Source of the DNA: a virus
IMG/VR virus record: IMGVR_UViG_3300030108_001010
Coordinates: 1-22,352 of that record
Reading direction: 5' to 3' (one strand)
DNA: 22,352 nucleotides
Part shown: positions 10,337 to 22,352 of the stretch, in pieces
Numbering within the stretch: the first letter of the stretch is position 1
Layout: each line of letters opens with the position of its first letter
Program-made: the position numbers and the translations under genes
The notes under the pieces: generated by a model
What the model was told of the DNA's origin: nothing
The model's input: the letters and a program-made list of their open reading frames with translations, nothing else
Databases searched by the model: none

Positions 10337-10732
10337 CTATTTCTTTTTACTAATCATGCCTTTGATACCAGGGGCAGCCCTAACACCTAGACTAACACTA
10401 CAAGCTAGATATAAGAGATGTGTATAATATTCTGGTAAAGTTTCTAAAATTGCAAACCCACGCTCTATGTGTGGTTGCATAAAAGGCAGGAAGGCACAAA
10501 TTGCTGGAACCATCAGGGCTAGTAAAACAAATTCGTCTTTCCAGCTCCCCTTCATTTGATCTACAGCCGAAGCCTCCCACGCAACTTTGCCTGCAATTTG
10601 TTGCTCTTTCAGACTCTTCTGTGCTTTTATCTCAGTGAGTGCTAAGTCTGCTTTTGCTTTCTTAGTCTCCACGAAACCTTTTATTGTATCTCCCACTATA
10701 TTAGTAATGGGACCTAATAACATATTAAACAT
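10337..10732 (-). CDS. Holin, GTA/3TM-like
   Basis: This 131-aa membrane protein probably forms the lesion that releases the endolysin. Residues 1-60 are an amphipathic, Lys/Gln/Ala-rich helical region (ETKKAKADLALTEIKAQKSL). Then come MKGSWKDEF and two clear membrane helices at about 68-84 (FVLLALMVPAICAFLPF) and 102-118 (YYTHLLYLACSVSLGVR), with a basic C-terminus (KGMISKKK). This layout fits the family named for gene-transfer-agent release (GTA_holin_3TM), which is common in alphaproteobacterial phages. Its position immediately before the lysozyme supports the call. An AAGGAGG site precedes the start. Confidence 0.8.
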   Translation of the reverse strand: MFNMLLGPITNIVGDTIKGFVETKKAKADLALTEIKAQKSLKEQQIAGKVAWEASAVDQMKGSWKDEFVLLALMVPAICAFLPFMQPHIERGFAILETLPEYYTHLLYLACSVSLGVRAAPGIKGMISKKK

Positions 10733-10741
10733 TATTCCTCC

Positions 10742-13700
10742 TTATAATCCTAAATCTTGATCATCAATATAATCCATAACACTTTTAAATAGCAAAGATA
10801 ATTGAGATTCTAATTGATCTATTTTGACTCTTTTAGCACCACCACTCATACTTTCATCATTAATTATTAGATTTCTAGTTTTATTTATAGATTGTATTTT
10901 TCTACCGATACTCTCTAGTGTTGGACTTATAGCCATTAGTTCCATAAAATCAGGGTCTTCTGCTAATTCTTTAATTAATTCTATCTTTCCTTCTTCTTTA
11001 AATTTTTTAACTATGTTAACAGCTTTATCTGCCTCTCTTTTTAGTCTATAAAAATCAGCCTCTGCCTGTGTAAACTTATTAGGATCTAATTGTAAGAATC
11101 TTTTTAGAAAAGGTAATTCATCTAACCTTTTATCTGGCATTTCTTTATTATCAAACATGTCAAACCCTGAATCTATTAAATCTAATAAATAACCACCCAT
11201 AGCACCTGTGTATGCTCTATAATAATTTTCAAACTTAATAGGAGACATTAAATATTTTCTAATATTAGGAGGTGCATTTTCTATAGCTGATGTGATCACA
11301 TTACTACTCCACGGATAAGATTGCCCATAATCAGGTAAACCATGTTTCATATTTTCTGGTATAACAGGAGATCCAAAAAATGTTTTATTTAACGCTGTAT
11401 TATATATGGGGGCTACTAACTGTGGCACATAAGATAATCTAGCTTGTTGTTTTAATATAGTCCAAGTAGTTAAGAAAAACTCATCTGCATCTTTTTCATT
11501 ATCTAAAGTTTCTAAAAAACTTGTTAATATAGTTCCTATCGCACCAAACTCAAAAGGTTTAGGTATTTTTATAAAATTACCATCACCTATTGGTATCATG
11601 TAGTTTAAATCTCTAATTTGTTGTGCAGTATTTTTATAGTTTTCATCGTTTCTATTTAATATGTAGAACATTATAGTGGGTGCAGCTACAAAAGTAGATA
11701 TCTTAGATAAAACTGCAGCCCTAACTTTAGGACCTTCATTTTTAAGTGCCCTTACAGTTCTGTAAATACCTTGTATTCCTGCATTCAAAAACGGAACCAT
11801 AGATGTATAGTTTCTAAAGAATTGATTAGCACCATGCATACCAAAGTCTACAGCCACCTCTCTAGCTGCAAACGCAGCTTCTCTTGCAGATATACCTCTT
11901 GCTCTTAACATAGCATACTCTGTAAATCTAGAAGCATTTTCAAATCCTGTAACTAATTTACCATAGTTATCTATCACTTTTAAAGGTCTATTTAAAACAT
12001 TTTGATAATCACTATGACCTAACTTTCTGTAAAACTCTCTTAAAAATCCTTCTGATACTTCGCCTCTCCATAAAGTAGATCCGAAAGATCCTCCATTTAA
12101 AAGAAACTCTTCATATAATTCTTTGTATGTAATTTCTGAACCGTCTTCTAATTTTATTTTAGCATTACTTTGAAATCTTTTTGATGTTTTTACGGCAGTG
12201 CTAAGTATAGGTATGTAAAAAGGATTTCTAGATAGAATAGCTGCAGAAAAGGTGTCTCTTAAAGCATTGGCTCCTGCAAAGAATCCGGGATCCATTGTAA
12301 CACCTTTTGTCAAAAGGTTTTTAAAAAATCTAGCTGCCCTAACAAATCCATTTGTTGAAGCAAATTGTTTAGGACTAATAGAATTTAGTGTGGTATATAA
12401 GAATGGATTTTTTACTTCGTATATAGTTTTTTCTATATCACCTGCTTTATTTTTTCTAAACACGACAAACTGATTATCTTCTAATGCTAATCTTTCTGAT
12501 CTAAATAAATTTAAATTGTCTAGATCTTCCAAGTCATTGATATCTAATTCAACACCTTTTTGTTTAAACACTTGTGTTTGCAATTCTTCTTTTTTTATAG
12601 TTACAACACTTTTTCTTTTTCCTTGACCTGGTGCTCTTATAGCCCAATCTTTTAACGCACCTTTTGCATTGTCAATTAAATTAAAAGTATTTTTTAATAC
12701 TTTATTTTTATAAGATGCAGTTAGAATACTGTTTATGTTTTCAATATAGTTATCAAATAAATTTCTTAAAGGTAGTTCACCTTCTTTAAATCCAATAGGT
12801 ACAGTTGCTCTCAATTGTCTTTTTACAGCAACACCTCCTCCACCTGATCTAGATAGAAAATTATCATCTATAGACATATCTCTATACAAAGGCACATAAT
12901 GTTTTCTCGCAGCTAATAATTTATCCATAGTTTTTTGAGATATTAATTCTGCATCTACAGCTATATTTAATAAATCTTTATTAAACTTATCTAACTCTTC
13001 TAAAGCCTTTGTATATTCAGGTATAGCATCGCCTTTTGCAGCCTCAGATATCATTTTGTCTTTTGTTGCTTGTGTATTTTCAGGAAATAATCCTTTAAAT
13101 CTTTTATTGTCTAGTGACAATACGCTTTTAGTTCCTACATAATTAAAAAATTCATCAGGGTTGTGCTTTTTACCTAAAGTTTTAACTAATAAAGTTTGCA
13201 AACCATCATTACCTGTTTTTTCCAAAACACCATTGGCTGAATATCTAAATGTGCCTTTGAATAAAAAGTGTTCTATCATACCACCAATAGCAGGCAAAAA
13301 TCTAGCTTCTTGATAAACACCTATACCATCTTTGTATATTTTGCTTAACTCAGGTACAGTTATTTTTCTTTTTACGCCAGGTTTTAAATTTATGTTTTTT
13401 ACTGCGTCTTCTAAATATCTTAGTCCTGCATTGTTATCTAAAAATTCTAAAGCAAATTTTTTCACAATATTACTATTAAAGAAACTAGTTTTTATATTTT
13501 GAATAGCAGATTTTTTGTCTCTTACTTTTGTGCCGATAGTATAATCACTGTCTTTGCCTTCAGTTTTTATTTGTTTTTTATCTTTATCTCTACCCAAAAC
13601 TTCATCAGTTTGTTCTTTTGTTGATTTAGTCGTAGTCGTAGTTGTAGCTTTAGTATCTTTAGTTTCTTTTAAAGTTTTATCTAATTCCTGTAGTGCTTTA

Positions 13701-14440
13701 CCACCTATTTTATTTTTACTCCAAACAAAACCTTTTGATACACCTGCTAAAAATGGTGGTATAAATACAGAAGGTATTCCTCCTGCAAGAGCATTTTTTA
13801 AACGCTCCATTCCAGGATCTCCATTAGGATCTGTTTGTAGCCATTCTGTTACAGCATTTTTTGTAGCAGGAAATCTAACCATAAAGTCGGCTAAGTTAGG
13901 ATCATAAGGAGCAAAAGCTATTGCATCAGCTGCAGCACCTGCACCTATTGCTAAACCTGCTGTAGTTTTTTTAGATACTTTTGGTTTTTTTAATTTAATT
14001 TTTACAGGAGTTGTGGCTTTATCTTTAGGTACATAACTTATAGTCTTTCTATCTATCTTTGTAGCCTTACCTGTTTTCTCTAGAGTCTTTATAGTTTTAT
14101 TAAGATTGCTCGCATTCTTAATAAACATGTAACCGCCCTTGAGTATTTTAAATGCTCCTGTATAAGGTATAAAAAACTGTGCACCAGGTCGTACAAATTG
14201 ACCTACTGTAGTTTCTGCTTCAGGAACTAGCTGACTAATTTCTATTTCTTTATCTTTTGGCACAACAAAATTATATGCAGATTCTGCAGCATCAACTACA
14301 CCCCCTGCAGTTTGCACCGCTATATCCTCTAGAGTTTTACCAACACTATGAAGAAAAGGCCTTTCTTCTTTTTCTTCTTTAGGTTTTACAGGTTGGTTTA
14401 TCTCTATAGAATTAAATAGGTTTTGTCTATCTATTCCCAT
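10742..14440 (-). CDS. Large internal/ejected virion protein, LPD38-like domain
   Basis: At 1232 aa this is the largest gene here. The N-terminal ~250 residues are low-complexity with hydrophobic Gly/Ala segments (TTAGLAIGAGAAADAIAFAP, 159-178; GGIPSVFIPPFLAGV, 220-234). A Lys/Thr-rich linker follows. Residues about 700-900 resemble LPD38, a domain of phage polyvalent proteins: TMDPGFFAGANALRD, then GISAREAAFAAREVAVDFG and VPFLNAGIQGIYR. The size and position, after a 762-aa protein and before the holin, mirror T7 gp16 after gp15. I infer that it is packaged in the capsid and ejected into the host. The lytic transglycosylase domain of T7 gp16 is not apparent. The C-terminal ~100 residues are coiled-coil-like. 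Confidence 0.8.
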   Translation of the reverse strand: MGIDRQNLFNSIEINQPVKPKEEKEERPFLHSVGKTLEDIAVQTAGGVVDAAESAYNFVVPKDKEIEISQLVPEAETTVGQFVRPGAQFFIPYTGAFKILKGGYMFIKNASNLNKTIKTLEKTGKATKIDRKTISYVPKDKATTPVKIKLKKPKVSKKTTAGLAIGAGAAADAIAFAPYDPNLADFMVRFPATKNAVTEWLQTDPNGDPGMERLKNALAGGIPSVFIPPFLAGVSKGFVWSKNKIGGKALQELDKTLKETKDTKATTTTTTKSTKEQTDEVLGRDKDKKQIKTEGKDSDYTIGTKVRDKKSAIQNIKTSFFNSNIVKKFALEFLDNNAGLRYLEDAVKNINLKPGVKRKITVPELSKIYKDGIGVYQEARFLPAIGGMIEHFLFKGTFRYSANGVLEKTGNDGLQTLLVKTLGKKHNPDEFFNYVGTKSVLSLDNKRFKGLFPENTQATKDKMISEAAKGDAIPEYTKALEELDKFNKDLLNIAVDAELISQKTMDKLLAARKHYVPLYRDMSIDDNFLSRSGGGGVAVKRQLRATVPIGFKEGELPLRNLFDNYIENINSILTASYKNKVLKNTFNLIDNAKGALKDWAIRAPGQGKRKSVVTIKKEELQTQVFKQKGVELDINDLEDLDNLNLFRSERLALEDNQFVVFRKNKAGDIEKTIYEVKNPFLYTTLNSISPKQFASTNGFVRAARFFKNLLTKGVTMDPGFFAGANALRDTFSAAILSRNPFYIPILSTAVKTSKRFQSNAKIKLEDGSEITYKELYEEFLLNGGSFGSTLWRGEVSEGFLREFYRKLGHSDYQNVLNRPLKVIDNYGKLVTGFENASRFTEYAMLRARGISAREAAFAAREVAVDFGMHGANQFFRNYTSMVPFLNAGIQGIYRTVRALKNEGPKVRAAVLSKISTFVAAPTIMFYILNRNDENYKNTAQQIRDLNYMIPIGDGNFIKIPKPFEFGAIGTILTSFLETLDNEKDADEFFLTTWTILKQQARLSYVPQLVAPIYNTALNKTFFGSPVIPENMKHGLPDYGQSYPWSSNVITSAIENAPPNIRKYLMSPIKFENYYRAYTGAMGGYLLDLIDSGFDMFDNKEMPDKRLDELPFLKRFLQLDPNKFTQAEADFYRLKREADKAVNIVKKFKEEGKIELIKELAEDPDFMELMAISPTLESIGRKIQSINKTRNLIINDESMSGGAKRVKIDQLESQLSLLFKSVMDYIDDQDLGL

Positions 14441-17246: not shown

Positions 17247-17528
17247 TTATAAATTTGGTAATGTTATTTTACTGTAAGAATCATTACCGCTGAATAATCT
17301 TCTTTGCCATAATTGTAATAATACATTTGGGTCAGATGTATCTATAGTTTCAGCTGTTCCTGGACTAGATTCATAATCACTAGTAGTGACATATGCATTT
17401 GAAAAACTAGGTGGACTAGTGCGAGAGGGTGTACTAGCACCATCTGTTCCAAAAGCAGAACCTAAAGCACTACCAATTGTATCTGAAAACATTTTTTTAG
17501 TAAATATACTACCTATTAAATCTATCAT
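17247..17528 (-). CDS. Small Ser/Thr-rich protein of the virion cluster (93 aa)
   Basis: I do not recognise this gene. Residues 1-27 form an amphipathic Gly/Ala-containing helix (MIDLIGSIFTKKMFSDTIGS). The middle is Ser/Thr/Pro-rich and probably disordered (STPSRTSPPSFSNAYVTTSD). The end, NVLLQLWQRRLFSGND, may form a short helix. Similar N-terminal helices occur in phage internal core proteins, and the flanking genes are virion proteins, so a minor virion role is plausible. The start overlaps the 468-aa gene's stop as TAATG. Confidence 0.6.
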   Translation of the reverse strand: MIDLIGSIFTKKMFSDTIGSALGSAFGTDGASTPSRTSPPSFSNAYVTTSDYESSPGTAETIDTSDPNVLLQLWQRRLFSGNDSYSKITLPNL

Positions 17529-18934
17529 TAATCTCCTCCTGTAGAAAATACTCCTGCAGCAAATCTACCTAACATGCTAAATAAAGCATCCCTAGATTCT
17601 TGATCTGCTAAATCAAAAGCTGTTTGTCTTTCTAATGCAGCTACTGCCATATTATGTGCTCTGTTTAAAGAATTTTGTGCGGCCTCATTTGTCCATGATG
17701 CCTCATCTCTCCATTGTTGCCATAATGATGACATAGCAAAATTAGATATGTTTAGTAAATTTTGTGCATTAGTTTGATTAGCTGCATTTACACTTGCTGT
17801 GTTTGCAGTATTAATTTGTCTTCTCCAATTAGTATTAGATTGATCAATAACCTGTTGATTCTGCACATTAAATCTTTCTCTTTGATCTGCTAGTTGTGAG
17901 TTAAACTGATTTATAGACGCTTCTGTTTGTAAATTAGCTTGTGCTACTGCTGTTTCATTATTAGCATTTTGTGCAGATATTCTATTTGTTTCTTGCGTAG
18001 CAAATTGATTCATTGCATCTGTTCTTTGTGCATTTGCTGTTGCTATATTTGAAGATAGATTTGCATAAAATTGATCTACTTGATTTTGACTTGTAGCGTT
18101 AAATTGAGCTGCAGCGTTGGAAGCTGCTTGATCTGATAATAATTGAGATTGTCTTAGTTGTATGTTTTGTAGATTAGCTTGCTGTTGATTACTAAGATTA
18201 GCCATATCCATTTTAAGATATGACTGTGCATTTTGTAATGCAGACTGTTGCCTATTAGATAGGTTTTGAAATATCATAGCCTTATAGGTTGCAGCATCTG
18301 CGGCAGCTATTGGTACTGCAGATTTCATAACACCTTCAGCTAAAGCTTCAGCGTACATACTAGAAGCACCAAGACCTCTCTTTGCCATGTTAGCCTCTAC
18401 TAGTTGCTGTGCACCTCTAGCCCATGCAGGTAATTCTTTGCCTTGTGTGACAGCATCTGTAACTTGTTGTTGTAATCCCTCTAGCTGTCCTGCAACAGTA
18501 GCATCACTAGTTATTTGACCTGTTTGTGCAACCATAGGTTGTGTCAAAGTACCTTGAGCTGCAGTCATAGTAGGTGCTGTGCCTACCGTAGTAGCTGTGT
18601 AATTAGCTGCAGCCTGCTCAGCAGGACTTACTACTTGTGTTGCGGTTGTTGGTGTTGTTGCTACGGCTGTCCCTGCAGTTGCAGTTGGCACTGCAGCAGT
18701 TGGTGCTGTTGTTGCTACACCTGGCGTAGAAAGCATTTCGTTTGTTTGAGTCTGTTGTAATGCAGGAGTTATAACTGCACCTTGAGGTAGTGCAGGATTA
18801 ACAACTTGTTGTCTAGCTAAATTTAAAGTATCTTGTGATGTCCCTGATTGAGGATTAGGAACTACTCCTACAGGTAATTCTACTGGTGGAACTTGTTGTG
18901 TAGGAGGTGTAGTGTGACCCGGTTCGTGTGGCAT
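17528..18934 (-). CDS. Ala/Gln/Asn-rich helical virion protein (468 aa)
   Basis: The product has three zones. Residues 1-150 are Pro/Thr/Ala/Val-rich and probably disordered. Residues about 165-215 contain ELPAWARGAQQLVEANMAKR and RGLGASSMYAEALAEG, then SAVPIAAADAATYKAM. I have seen this RGLG-SS-A-...-PIA-DA pattern in phage tail and DNA-ejection proteins. Residues about 215-440 form a long Gln/Asn/Ala-rich helix or coiled coil without hydrophobic anchors, and the C-terminus has RFAAGVFSTGG. The composition and place at the head of the ejection-type cluster suggest a virion protein, perhaps an internal core component (inference). It is TAATG-coupled to its neighbours on both sides. Confidence 0.7.
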   Translation of the reverse strand: MPHEPGHTTPPTQQVPPVELPVGVVPNPQSGTSQDTLNLARQQVVNPALPQGAVITPALQQTQTNEMLSTPGVATTAPTAAVPTATAGTAVATTPTTATQVVSPAEQAAANYTATTVGTAPTMTAAQGTLTQPMVAQTGQITSDATVAGQLEGLQQQVTDAVTQGKELPAWARGAQQLVEANMAKRGLGASSMYAEALAEGVMKSAVPIAAADAATYKAMIFQNLSNRQQSALQNAQSYLKMDMANLSNQQQANLQNIQLRQSQLLSDQAASNAAAQFNATSQNQVDQFYANLSSNIATANAQRTDAMNQFATQETNRISAQNANNETAVAQANLQTEASINQFNSQLADQRERFNVQNQQVIDQSNTNWRRQINTANTASVNAANQTNAQNLLNISNFAMSSLWQQWRDEASWTNEAAQNSLNRAHNMAVAALERQTAFDLADQESRDALFSMLGRFAAGVFSTGGD

Positions 18935-19140
18935 TAGTACATTACCTCTCTAGTTTTTATAAGATATTCTTCCATCCATATTATTTTTTCTTTTATGATA
19001 GCAATATCTTGTTGCATTTTAGAAACATTATCTGTCTTTGTTTCTAAAGCATCTAATCGTTCTGACCACATACCCCATGTCATGGCAAAACCTAGCATCA
19101 TAATTAAATATGGTGCTAATACTTTTACATCTATATTCAT
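18934..19140 (-). CDS. Small membrane-anchored coiled-coil protein (68 aa)
   Basis: The product has one N-terminal membrane helix (about 7-25, VLAPYLIMMLGFAMTWGMW) followed by a heptad-like coiled coil (RLDALETKTDNVSKMQQDIA... to about 62). There is no signal cleavage site or lipobox. A short anchor followed by a coiled coil is the architecture of inner-membrane spanins such as Rz, but the length is small and the gene is about 8 kb upstream of the lysozyme. It could instead be a virion or envelope protein pairing with the similar 152-aa protein next door. The gap to that gene is 11 bases, and the stop overlaps the 468-aa gene as TAATG. Confidence 0.65.
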   Translation of the reverse strand: MNIDVKVLAPYLIMMLGFAMTWGMWSERLDALETKTDNVSKMQQDIAIIKEKIIWMEEYLIKTREVMY

Positions 19141-19151
19141 AGTTTCTCCTA

Positions 19152-19610
19152 TTAGTTTTTAGCTGACATGCTATTTAATGGATTATTTAAAGCCTTATTT
19201 AACTTTAAATCTAAACTATCCTCAACAAGTTTTAGTTCATCCAAAAGTTCTCTAGCATCCTCTTTCTGTCTGTCCTCTACATCATTGACTATTTCAGTGA
19301 TATGTCTTATATCACCATTCATTTGACGCAAATCTGCTTTCATGTCGTTCTTTAAATCTTTGGCAACATCTGCTACTATTGTAATTTCATCAAGTATCAT
19401 ATCTATTTCTGATTTTAGCACTGCTAGTTGTTCATCATAGTGTGAAAGATCAGGGGCTGTATACTCCAAAACTTTCTGTTGAAGGTCTTGATAGTTTTTC
19501 CAAAATTCAAAAACTGCCCATGCTCCTGAACCAAGAGCACCTAGAAGAGTAAGAATAGCAAATGCTTTCCCCCCAGATACTTTCATTCCTGAATACTCAA
19601 TACTGGGCAT
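19152..19610 (-). CDS. Membrane-anchored coiled-coil protein, conserved in marine phages (152 aa)
   Basis: The first residues, MPSIEYSGMKVSGGKAFAIL, are familiar to me from marine T4-like and pelagiphage hypothetical proteins. A membrane helix at about 16-36 (AFAILTLLGALGSGAWAVFEF) is followed by YQDLQQKVLEYTAPDLSHYD, then a long charged coiled coil to about residue 140 (for example LKNDMKADLRQMNGDIRHIT). The layout predicts one anchor with a long helical rod outside the inner membrane, as in an i-spanin or a membrane-fusion rod. No function is established to my knowledge. GGAGG lies nine bases before the ATG. The start overlaps the 494-aa gene by 14 bases. Confidence 0.7.
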   Translation of the reverse strand: MPSIEYSGMKVSGGKAFAILTLLGALGSGAWAVFEFWKNYQDLQQKVLEYTAPDLSHYDEQLAVLKSEIDMILDEITIVADVAKDLKNDMKADLRQMNGDIRHITEIVNDVEDRQKEDARELLDELKLVEDSLDLKLNKALNNPLNSMSAKN

Positions 19611-21078
19611 TTATCATATCCTCCATTGTCTGTGCTTGTGCCATATCAAATAATACTCCATAATTATCTTCTATTGTTTTATTTAAATATTCATTGACAT
19701 CTGTATCAACTATTGTCGATTGTGTATCAAAGAATGTTTTTGTATTGCCAAGTATCTGCATAACAATTAATGTTTTCATTTGATTTGATTCATCATACCT
19801 AGCTTTGTCGTCAATCTTTTTTACTATCTTAGTTGCAGCTTTTTCTTTTGCAGAAGGTTCTTTTACAGGTTTCTCAGCAGGCTCTTGTGCTTCTTCCTGT
19901 TGTACACTTTCTTGCTCATCACCACTCTCATTTTCCATAGTGGGTTCCTCAGTAGTTTCGCTATTGGGTTCTGCTGTTTCTTCTGTTGGTTGCTCATCTA
20001 TAGTTTCTTCTACTTCAGGTTCAGGTAAATCTATTTCCATCTCCATTTCTATCTCTAGTTCTAATTCCATTTCTGTTTCAATTTCTACAGAGACTAATTC
20101 AGGTTCAGGTAAATCTATTTCAAAATCTATCTCAAACTCTTGTATTTCTAATTCTACAGTTTCATAAGTTACTTCTTCTGTTTCAGGTTCAATTGGTGCA
20201 AACTCAATATCTCCTACATCATCAATACTAATATCATTATATTCAAACACTTCTTCTACAAATTCTATTTCTATAGGATCAAATATATTTAAATAATATA
20301 TTTCTTCTAAAGTAGTTATTTGCTGTTCTATTATTGTAGATACTACATTGTAAAAAACATTTACAGTAACATCATCAAATAATGGACCTATTGATAAATT
20401 TATATCTCTACCACCAACCTCTATAACAACTCTATTTATAGATCCTGCAAAATCAAAAGATCCTGTGTAAGATTGATAGCCTGAAGATATACCTGTTTCA
20501 GATAATATATCTGTGCCTTGAAATACATTAGTAGATCCATTTCTTCCTGTAATGTGCATATATATCCTATCTTGTGCATCTCTTTTATCTACTTGAATAG
20601 AATATTTAACTTCTCCACCACGATCTATATTTAGATCTGATATGTCTACAGTTTGTATAAAAGTTGTGCCCATACCTGAGACACCCATTGTAGATGTAGA
20701 ATTACCGCTACCTGTTATCTGTGCACATTTATCTGTGCCTAAAGCATAACAATTATTACCTGAAGGCATATTAGCAGGACCTTGTCCACCCCAATCAACA
20801 TCCATGTCGCCTTCTTTATTTGTTACAACATATCCATTACTACTATCTAATATGTCACCTGAATCTTCGTTTGTAACAGTCTGTGTTGTAGTTGTAGTAG
20901 TAGTAGTTGTGGTTGTTACTATCTCTGTCCCTAAATCTTCTTCGGTAACTTCTACTTGTACATCCTCTGTAATTGTAACTCCAGGTTCACATAGGCCTTC
21001 ATGATTAGGCAGACATACATCAGCCTTAGAATAAGAGCAATAAACTAAGAGCCATAAGACCAAAATTCTTAAGAGCAT
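19597..21078 (-). CDS. Exported polyacidic protein with poly-Thr tract (493 aa)
   Basis: I start at 21078, the second of two adjacent ATGs, because AGGAGA (21089-21084) is five bases from it and only two from the one at 21081. A signal peptide is clear (MLLRILVLWLLVYCSYSKA, cut likely after Ala19). Residues 55-65 are 11 consecutive Thr. Residues about 99-250 form a beta-rich domain (GTTFIQTVDISDLN, DRIYMHITGR, VVIEVGGRDINLS, FDDVTVNVFYNV) resembling a jelly-roll or carbohydrate-binding sandwich. Residues about 255-405 are extremely acidic with two copies of EIDLPEPE. The last 85 residues are Lys-containing and helical. Two Cys pairs could form disulfides. I recall relatives in marine phages, all hypothetical. 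Its start region overlaps the previous gene by about 56 bases. Confidence 0.75.
   Translation of the reverse strand: MLLRILVLWLLVYCSYSKADVCLPNHEGLCEPGVTITEDVQVEVTEEDLGTEIVTTTTTTTTTTTQTVTNEDSGDILDSSNGYVVTNKEGDMDVDWGGQGPANMPSGNNCYALGTDKCAQITGSGNSTSTMGVSGMGTTFIQTVDISDLNIDRGGEVKYSIQVDKRDAQDRIYMHITGRNGSTNVFQGTDILSETGISSGYQSYTGSFDFAGSINRVVIEVGGRDINLSIGPLFDDVTVNVFYNVVSTIIEQQITTLEEIYYLNIFDPIEIEFVEEVFEYNDISIDDVGDIEFAPIEPETEEVTYETVELEIQEFEIDFEIDLPEPELVSVEIETEMELELEIEMEMEIDLPEPEVEETIDEQPTEETAEPNSETTEEPTMENESGDEQESVQQEEAQEPAEKPVKEPSAKEKAATKIVKKIDDKARYDESNQMKTLIVMQILGNTKTFFDTQSTIVDTDVNEYLNKTIEDNYGVLFDMAQAQTMEDMINAQY
20014..20121. repeat. In-frame 24-bp direct repeat
   Basis: The 24-base string beginning TTCAGGTTCAGG and ending TCTATTTC occurs at 20014-20037 and identically at 20098-20121. 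The copies are 84 bases (28 codons) apart, so they are in frame within the exported acidic protein and encode EIDLPEPE twice. This is consistent with recent tandem growth of the acidic segment by slippage or recombination. Confidence 0.85.
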
Positions 21079-21586
21079 CATTATCTCCTGTAGGTTCTTG
21101 CTTATCTACTTTAGCTTGTAAATATTCTGGCTTGTATTTACTTCCGTCTGGAATTTCAGAAGGATGATTACTCCAATATTGTGCGGCTTCTGTTCCTATA
21201 AATCCTTTAGCTGGGCATGGGGTCCCTGCGTCTGTCATCGCATCCCATACTCTTGGATCTTGACATAATATAGATACTGCAGCTACCTTCATACCATAAG
21301 CATACATAGATCTAGATAATTTTAATTTTTGACATAGTTCATCATCTATAACTATACCGCTAGCTAATCCAACTATATTATTTTGCACACTAGCTCCCAC
21401 ACCAACTTTACATATATCGCTGTTAGAATTTATAATACTTGGTGCGTTTGCTGTAGGTGGTGTTGAGTTAGTAACTACAGTTGAGGACACAGTATTGGTT
21501 TCTGCAAAAGTATGGTTTATGGAAAAACCCATAAGTATAAAACTTAATAATAAACATAGAGCAAAAAAATTAGAGTTTTTATTCAT
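21026..21586 (-). CDS. Exported protein with C-terminal hydrophobic tail (186 aa)
   Basis: A signal peptide is clear: charged start MNKNSN, hydrophobic core FFALCLLLSFILMGF, and a likely cut after TFA at residue 28. The mature part starts with a Thr/Ser/Pro segment (SSTVVTNSTPPTANAPS) that I remember from hypothetical proteins of marine myophages. It then has Cys59, Cys85, Cys108 and Cys124, which could form two disulfides. The helical KLSRSMYAYGMKVAAVSIL and DPRVWDAM segments lie in this region. The last 13 residues (FGLMALSLLLLF) are hydrophobic and could anchor it. This predicts a periplasmic or membrane-tethered product. Its final 56 bases also encode the next gene's signal peptide. It starts one base after the fibre gene stop. 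Confidence 0.75.
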   Translation of the reverse strand: MNKNSNFFALCLLLSFILMGFSINHTFAETNTVSSTVVTNSTPPTANAPSIINSNSDICKVGVGASVQNNIVGLASGIVIDDELCQKLKLSRSMYAYGMKVAAVSILCQDPRVWDAMTDAGTPCPAKGFIGTEAAQYWSNHPSEIPDGSKYKPEYLQAKVDKQEPTGDNDALKNFGLMALSLLLLF

Positions 21587-22352
21587 CTATCTTGCCGTTA
21601 CTGGCACTCCTTTACTACTTACAAATGGATGTTCTGCAAATGCTATGTAGATGTATGTTTCACCATTTGTATTAAAAGTATTTCCAAGGTTTGTAATTTT
21701 AAAACCATTAGAAAGAAAATCACCAAATACAAAAGTTCCATCAGCATCACTATTATTTGGGTTTAAATATAAATTTAAAGGATTAATTGTGTTTCTTTTA
21801 TTATCTATTATATGCCAGTTTCTTGCGGCATCTATACTTTTTATTAAAAAAAATGCAGGTTTAAATCCTGTGTATACAAAAGGTCCATCACTTGATGCAC
21901 CATTGCCTATATAAGAACCAAACTTTGAGTAGCCTTGTATTGGTGCCAAAACATACGCAACATAATCATCTCCACTATCATTAATAGAGTTATTATCTCC
22001 TACCGTAAATACTGTGCTTGATGCTCTTGTGTCACCAAACACTGCACTTAATGTTTGTTCTGCGCCAGTTGTGCTAAGTGTTTGTCCTTTACTAGCAGAC
22101 GAATTTCCTATGTGTTGATTATACCATTGTCTATCACCTGTAGACCTATTTTTAACAAGAACCCAATGAGGCGTTGTACCCACCCCATGAGCAATAGTTC
22201 CTGCACTTCCTGTTCCTGTATAAGTTACAATACTAAATCCTGCAGTAGTGTTAGCTTGATAAACTGAATCTATAGTTCCTACACCTGTTGCACTTGCATC
22301 ATTAGTTGTTGTAGTGCCTCCATTAGCTTTCCATTGCCATGCTACGCAATTT
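21587..22352 (-). CDS. Tail fibre/receptor-binding protein, C-terminal part (DUF7483-like), 5' end outside window
   Basis: The frame is open to the window edge. A GTG at 22183 is internal, because the residues encoded upstream (WQWKANGGTTTTNDASATG, then a segment reading AGFSIVTYTGTGSAGTIAHG) are the usual lead-in to this domain. The following GVGTTPHWVLVKNRSTGDRQW, NWHIIDNKRNTINP and YIYIAFAEHPF segments match the DUF7483 pattern seen at the C-terminal ends of phage tail fibres and other structural proteins. About 255 codons are visible. The protein most likely contacts the host surface or forms the fibre tip. It is the first late gene in the window, and the four envelope-directed genes follow immediately. 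Confidence 0.8.
   Translation of the reverse strand, partial: NCVAWQWKANGGTTTTNDASATGVGTIDSVYQANTTAGFSIVTYTGTGSAGTIAHGVGTTPHWVLVKNRSTGDRQWYNQHIGNSSASKGQTLSTTGAEQTLSAVFGDTRASSTVFTVGDNNSINDSGDDYVAYVLAPIQGYSKFGSYIGNGASSDGPFVYTGFKPAFFLIKSIDAARNWHIIDNKRNTINPLNLYLNPNNSDADGTFVFGDFLSNGFKITNLGNTFNTNGETYIYIAFAEHPFVSSKGVPVTAR

Follow-up and report, generated by a model that had tools for sequence, protein, structure and literature searches.

Of the phage systems already described, those closest to the genes considered here are the two-component spanins (for instance lambda Rz/Rz1 and T4 PseT.3/PseT.2), the unimolecular spanins (T1 gp11 and those of roseophages and cobaviruses) and the curli, or type VIII secretion system (T8SS), cluster, a multigene envelope cluster common to pelagiphage myo- and podoviruses (PMC9599517, PMC7029224). 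Spanins are not found everywhere: Kongari et al. could recognise none in about 13% of the phage genomes that they surveyed, with many marine genomes among them (PMC6139136), and phages of this spanin-less kind are acknowledged as an unsolved problem (PMC6139136, section 15). The subject of the present study is a three-gene module, here called A-B-C, in a 22.4-kb linear virus record from IMG/VR (IMGVR_UViG_3300030108_001010, positions 1 to 22,352; this whole stretch is called the window below). It is established that the module is conserved in unrelated marine phages and carries strong sequence signs of export; the reading favoured here, with a probability of roughly 0.4 and so held tentatively, is that it is a lipoprotein-free, periplasm-spanning late module that aids the outer-membrane step of lysis.

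The genes all lie on the minus strand. Gene A (21026..21586) encodes 186 amino acids, with a Sec-type signal peptide, a short linker and a core consisting of a beta-hairpin plus helices; gene B (19597..21081) encodes 494 amino acids, with an alternative start at 21078; gene C (19152..19610) encodes 152 amino acids, with a transmembrane (TM) helix, a coiled coil and an Asn-Pro-Leu (NPL) motif; and a fourth gene, D (18934..19140), encodes 68 amino acids, with a TM helix and a coiled coil. An earlier reading of this sequence (the original prediction) had proposed four open reading frames at 18934-21586, with signal peptides on the two longer proteins and, on the other two, a TM helix together with a coiled coil. 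All four are present with these architectures and with the sizes it gave, save that the 493 amino acids assigned to B are 494, there being two adjacent ATGs. None of the four proteins has an above-cut-off match in Pfam or NCBIfam, and PHROGs supply no name for any of them. Since no Pfam, NCBIfam or PDB family covers A-B-C, and no paper describing it was found in the open-licence literature, the module is new as a module, and the claim that the system is undescribed stands as far as the papers and family libraries within reach are concerned.

Comparison with spanins

Judging from its sequence, protein C has the layout of an inner-membrane spanin (i-spanin), with a single N-terminal TM helix, a predicted periplasmic coiled coil and a length of about 150 residues, and, as with two-component spanins, the genes overlap; in many relatives the module moreover lies beside holin, endolysin or canonical spanin genes. 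However, A-B-C differs from this class in having no outer-membrane lipoprotein, in having two proteins predicted to be secreted, one of which (B) carries a putative lectin-like domain and a long acidic linker, in the conserved NPL with which C ends, in showing no spanin-family match beyond a weak coiled-coil similarity (of C to the spanin profile phrog_1152, E 0.005), and in coexisting with real spanins in T4-like phages. Membership of the two-component class fails because there is no lipoprotein partner, i.e. no outer-membrane spanin (o-spanin) with a lipobox. In the case of the unimolecular spanins (u-spanins) the resemblance lies in protein A, with its N-terminal export signal and, within the clade of the window, a C-terminal TM helix; but A has no lipobox, the helix is confined to that clade and near relatives, and B and C are constant partners, so that this assignment fails also.

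A scan for lipoboxes found no sense-strand lipoprotein in the window, the lone match being an unlikely antisense open reading frame, and no credible sense-strand lipoprotein in HTVC202P, Baldr, S28C10 or 50 of the 53 kb of HTVC033P, while as a control it recovered the o-spanins of T4-like relatives. By that test, therefore, these four phages (HTVC033P over the 50 kb scanned) are without a classical o- or u-spanin. It also follows that the module, lacking a lipoprotein, is not a spanin by definition and can at most work like one. The situation in T4-like contigs is rather different, as in some ten of them a canonical Rz/Rz1-like pair, comprising a phrog_739 i-spanin and a phrog_812 lipoprotein with the lipobox LTSC, lies 27-1,705 bp upstream of A; simple replacement of spanins by the module can be rejected for these phages, given that the canonical pair adjoins it. 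Several such pairs beside A-B-C are unannotated (L163:9163-9946, L245:7868-8651, L161:246-626 and other T4-like marine loci).

Conservation and distribution of the module

Relatives of A and B were collected from IMG/VR, GTDB genomes and phage records, and were made non-redundant at two levels of identity in A: 90%, giving 100 loci with at least 2.5 kb of sequence downstream of A, and 70%, giving 39 lineages. Gene order and co-occurrence, the check set beforehand, proved very consistent. At the 90% level B directly follows A in 96 of the 100 loci, and a C protein ending in NPL, with a short tail after the motif, follows B in 94 of the 96 that have sequence beyond B; at the 70% level the corresponding figures are 30/34 and 29/30. 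Across loci all three genes share one strand, and C usually overlaps B by 3-13 bases. Four exceptions (L243, L152, L153 and L156) have some other protein in the slot of B but keep A and the NPL-ended C, and the substituted genes still encode a signal peptide. The co-occurrence of A, B and C is far beyond chance.

The same cannot be said of D, which may be found downstream of C, upstream of A or adjoining the lysozyme gene, and which is missing from distant groups. A four-gene unit was rejected for this reason: of the cassette originally proposed it is A-B-C that constitutes the conserved unit, with D as a variable neighbour.

As to distribution, A-B-C occurs in T4-like, T7-like and siphophage-like contigs, in very large contigs (243 and 328 kb) and in ten named phage records; among the records are Mosig (a 141-kb T4-like phage of the Kyanoviridae), S28C10 (Autographiviridae), HTVC023P, HTVC033P, HTVC115P, HTVC202P, Baldr, two roseophages and one freshwater-spring phage. 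The statement in the original prediction that unrelated marine myophages have similar sequences is borne out by Mosig and the T4-like contigs, as is the more general suggestion of a shared cassette, in unrelated marine phages, that is predicted to send proteins into the envelope. The nearest named relatives of A, B and C of the window are Pelagibacter phages, foremost HTVC115P, while a megablast comparison of the whole window with phages gave no match. A search of plasmids yielded three weak matches.

The individual proteins

Signal-like N-termini, as defined by a simple rule of hydrophobicity plus cleavage site rather than by a trained predictor, are present in 35 of 38 relatives of A (92%) and 31 of 33 relatives of B (94%), as against 15% of other neighbouring genes. 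The proteins of the module probably act in the periplasm.

Protein A has four cysteines (C59, C85, C108 and C124) that are invariant, being present in 100% of 70 aligned sequences, which suggests an oxidising compartment. Its AlphaFold model has a confident core of a beta-hairpin and helices, with predicted local distance difference test (pLDDT) values above 90 in the core; a Foldseek search of the PDB with this model gave no match (best E 0.6), and the fold resembles those of viral relatives that have no assigned function. Sequence searches of the PDB with profiles of A and B gave nothing useful. Protein A does match the profile phrog_20531 (E 4e-10 for the window, 4e-13 for Mosig), a cluster with neither name nor function that gives nothing on B, C or what the module does.

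The C-terminal hydrophobic helix of A is found in the window clade and near relatives and is mostly missing elsewhere. In 104 of 108 loci of that clade the coding sequences of A and B overlap by 53-56 bp (21026-21081 in the window), and this DNA encodes, in two frames, both the C-terminal helix of A and the signal peptide of B. It might be supposed that the helix is a by-product of the overlap, but it is also present in relatives without one, and so is no overlap artefact.

Proteins of the A type also exist outside the module. The hypothetical protein A0A0K2FIE8 of Achromobacter phage phiAxp-2 has the A-family core, signal peptide and cysteines (hidden Markov model E 2.7e-11, together with a fold match), and further A-family proteins occur in Achromobacter phages AXY1, 2-1 and vB_Ade_ART. 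The gene in phiAxp-2 (L255:44598-45155) adjoins one for a second secreted protein, Gly/Ser-rich and 164 amino acids long.

Protein B comprises a signal peptide, a Thr-rich stretch, a predicted beta-sandwich domain, a long extended Glu-rich linker and a helical C-terminal domain. Its structure model is of low confidence (mean pLDDT 47), and with that caveat Foldseek finds it to resemble CBM4, CBM6 and other lectin folds (CBM4-2, 2y6k, E 2.7e-4, probability 1.0); Pfam CBM_4_9 matches below cut-off in two relatives of B agree with such a lectin-like fold. One slot-B protein (L244:6935-7672) differs from other B proteins in that its N-terminus is lipobox-like (LLVSC); the contig that encodes it was binned with Bacteroidetes.

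Protein C has an N-terminal TM helix, predicted N-in/C-out from its charges, followed by a coiled coil that would lie in the periplasm, a topology deduced from sequence. Among 17 sequences the NPL motif provides the sole invariant columns. Two proteins annotated as lysozyme, CRP-207 gp73 (L152:3292-3873) and CRP-810 gp51 (L153:7198-7620), are C-family TM/coiled-coil proteins with an NPL end, and, judging from these sequence features, the annotation looks wrong in both cases.

Proximity to lysis genes

It had been argued that none of the genes looks like a lysis gene by position. This holds for the window, where the lysozyme (endolysin) gene (PF00959; 9897..10328, minus strand) lies 8.8 kb from C and is accompanied by a gene for a putative holin (phrog_2524; 10337..10732, minus strand), so regarded from its topology and its place beside the lysozyme, but it does not hold for relatives, in which lysozyme, holin-like or spanin genes often adjoin A-B-C. 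Within the window clade itself, if the lysozyme is denoted K and the holin-like gene J, the orders KJABCD, DKABC and ABCDKJ all recur.

Proximity was counted using as seeds only the window's own distant lysozyme (plus the holin-like gene for a pooled count), alongside control genes. Lysozyme matches, all on the same strand as the module, numbered 17 at less than 1 kb from it, 6 at 1-2 kb, 1 at 2-3 kb and 1 beyond, corresponding to densities per kb of 0.077 within 1 kb, 0.031 at 1-2 kb and 0 at 3-6 kb; the pooled density was 0.109 per kb within 1 kb and 0 at 3-5 kb. Since helicase/polymerase genes, used as a control, are also found near, proximity alone amounts to moderate evidence. Individual records show a variety of lysis genes: in Mosig a PF11351 holin is directly upstream of the module, in HTVC023P an M15 peptidase comes directly after C, in HTVC033P amidase and holin-like genes are close by, and in ctXG6705 holin-like and lysozyme genes are. 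In a combined tally, roughly half of the 39 lineages have at least one member with a recognisable lysis gene within about 2.5 kb; clustering with lysis genes is seen in many lineages.

Interpretation

According to the favoured reading, A-B-C would be a phage-encoded, Sec-exported envelope complex produced from the late region. Protein C would be fixed to the inner membrane and have its coiled coil in the periplasm; B would be secreted, with a C-terminal helix that could pair with C and an acidic linker that would carry the lectin-like domain to envelope sugars, whether peptidoglycan or outer-membrane glycans; and A would be a periplasmic partner, probably stabilised by disulfides and, in the window clade, tethered to a membrane. 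The whole could then act as a spanin-like bridge, free of lipoprotein, after the endolysin has removed the wall. Support for a role in lysis comes from the near-invariant order across the 39 lineages, the signal-like N-termini, the proximity both to lysozyme and to spanin pairs, and the lack of any credible sense-strand lipoprotein, by the lipobox scan, in some phages that have the module. A more specific form, somewhat doubtful in our estimation, is that A-B-C is a three-protein exit system without lipid anchors, neither spanin nor disruptin, by which marine (mainly SAR11) phages breach the outer membrane, completing lysis in phages that look spanin-less and, in T4-like pelagiphages, acting in concert with the canonical spanins; such a system would work through the NPL tail of C and through B, built as a lectin on a tether.

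Several observations weigh against a role in lysis. Neither A nor B has a lipobox in the window, and a full canonical spanin pair adjoins the module in T4-like relatives. Baldr and HTVC202P have the module by the terminase, far from the endolysin, and in HTVC115P about 24 kb separate it from the lysozyme. Tail-fibre, helicase/polymerase and 468-amino-acid-protein genes also adjoin the module in some clades, so that adjacency is not specific to lysis. Finally, the gene for the A-like protein of phiAxp-2 is adjoined by no recognised lysis gene, and over the 50 kb read nothing in this phage matches B or C. The original prediction had listed several functions without choosing among them; the balance of the data leans to lysis or exit, though not decisively.

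Ranked next is the possibility, which we regard as real if less probable, that A-B-C serves superinfection exclusion or envelope remodelling, by coating or altering the periplasm or the outer membrane of infected cells and thereby blocking injection by competing phages or keeping freed virions from sticking to debris, with the lectin-like domain of B binding the receptor glycan. Coinfection-avoidance functions have already been proposed for pelagimyophages (PMC7029224), and the predicted export, the fold suggested for B and the retention of the module in T4-like phages that already have spanins would all fit; so too would its place directly after the tail fibre in several clades, an arrangement that would let receptor genes and receptor-masking genes travel as one. 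A set of three interdependent proteins, with a coiled coil at the inner membrane among them, would however be elaborate for exclusion, and any binding of sugars by B is deduced from a low-confidence model. Exclusion genes, moreover, normally act early, so that a position in the late or lysis region would be unusual for them.

It is improbable, though less so than the readings that follow, that A and B are virion-associated or adsorption proteins which decorate the particle or serve as tail-fibre accessories, their N-terminal hydrophobic stretches remaining uncleaved. The tail-fibre gene next to the module, seen in the window and also in 11 non-redundant loci, the structural genes on both sides in the window and the lectin-like fold suggested for B could be so explained, but signal-like N-termini in more than 90% of A and B proteins, the TM helix of C and the oxidising compartment suggested by the cysteines of A argue otherwise, as does the indifference of the module to tail type (myo-, podo- and sipho-type phages). 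That the three are unrelated late genes and neighbours by chance, as the unrelated sequences able to fill the slot of B (L152, L153, L156) might suggest, is refuted by an order kept in 96/100 and 94/96 loci despite different flanks and by the signal peptide and NPL-ended C that accompany even the substituted genes. A curli reading, which would make A the fibre and B or C an accessory, is largely refuted and very improbable: A-B-C resembles the curli cluster in being a multigene envelope module common to unrelated pelagiphage families, and relatives of A have Ser/Thr/Asn/Gly-rich stretches, but its proteins differ, CsgG (PF03783) and Curlin_rpt (PF07012) being found in 0/20 A-B-C records, with positive controls, and none of 70 members of A matching a curlin family in Pfam.

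Other features of the window

Upstream, the module is flanked by the C-terminal part of a tail fibre protein (DUF7483; 21587..22351, minus strand), a gene cut by the end of the contig, and downstream by the gene for the 468-amino-acid protein (17528..18934, minus strand), which comes after D in part of the window clade. The holin-like protein belongs to phrog_2524, a cluster to which no function is assigned; it adjoins lysozyme in relatives as well as here and is a candidate for a new holin family. Positions 10742-14440 encode a 1232-amino-acid protein with an LPD38 domain (Pfam E 4.8e-31), akin to large proteins of Thalassomonas phage BA3, Vibrio phages and other pelagiphages, some of these relatives being annotated as methylase or DarB-like antirestriction proteins. 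In the protein encoded at 1227-2180, in the early region of this pelagiphage-like contig, a motif resembling that of cytosine-C5 methyltransferases (PCQGFS) was noted by eye.

Significance

When viruses lyse SAR11 and other abundant bacteria of the sea, a large share of ocean carbon is moved, and we know of no mechanism by which the phages of these bacteria breach the outer membrane. For that question the module offers three defined genes, a C-terminal motif that is diagnostic, and phages in culture (HTVC033P, HTVC023P, Mosig and CRP-207). A-B-C may be an unrecognised part of the way in which marine phages leave their hosts; if it should prove instead to be an exclusion system, it would be a conserved multi-protein one, present across several phage families.

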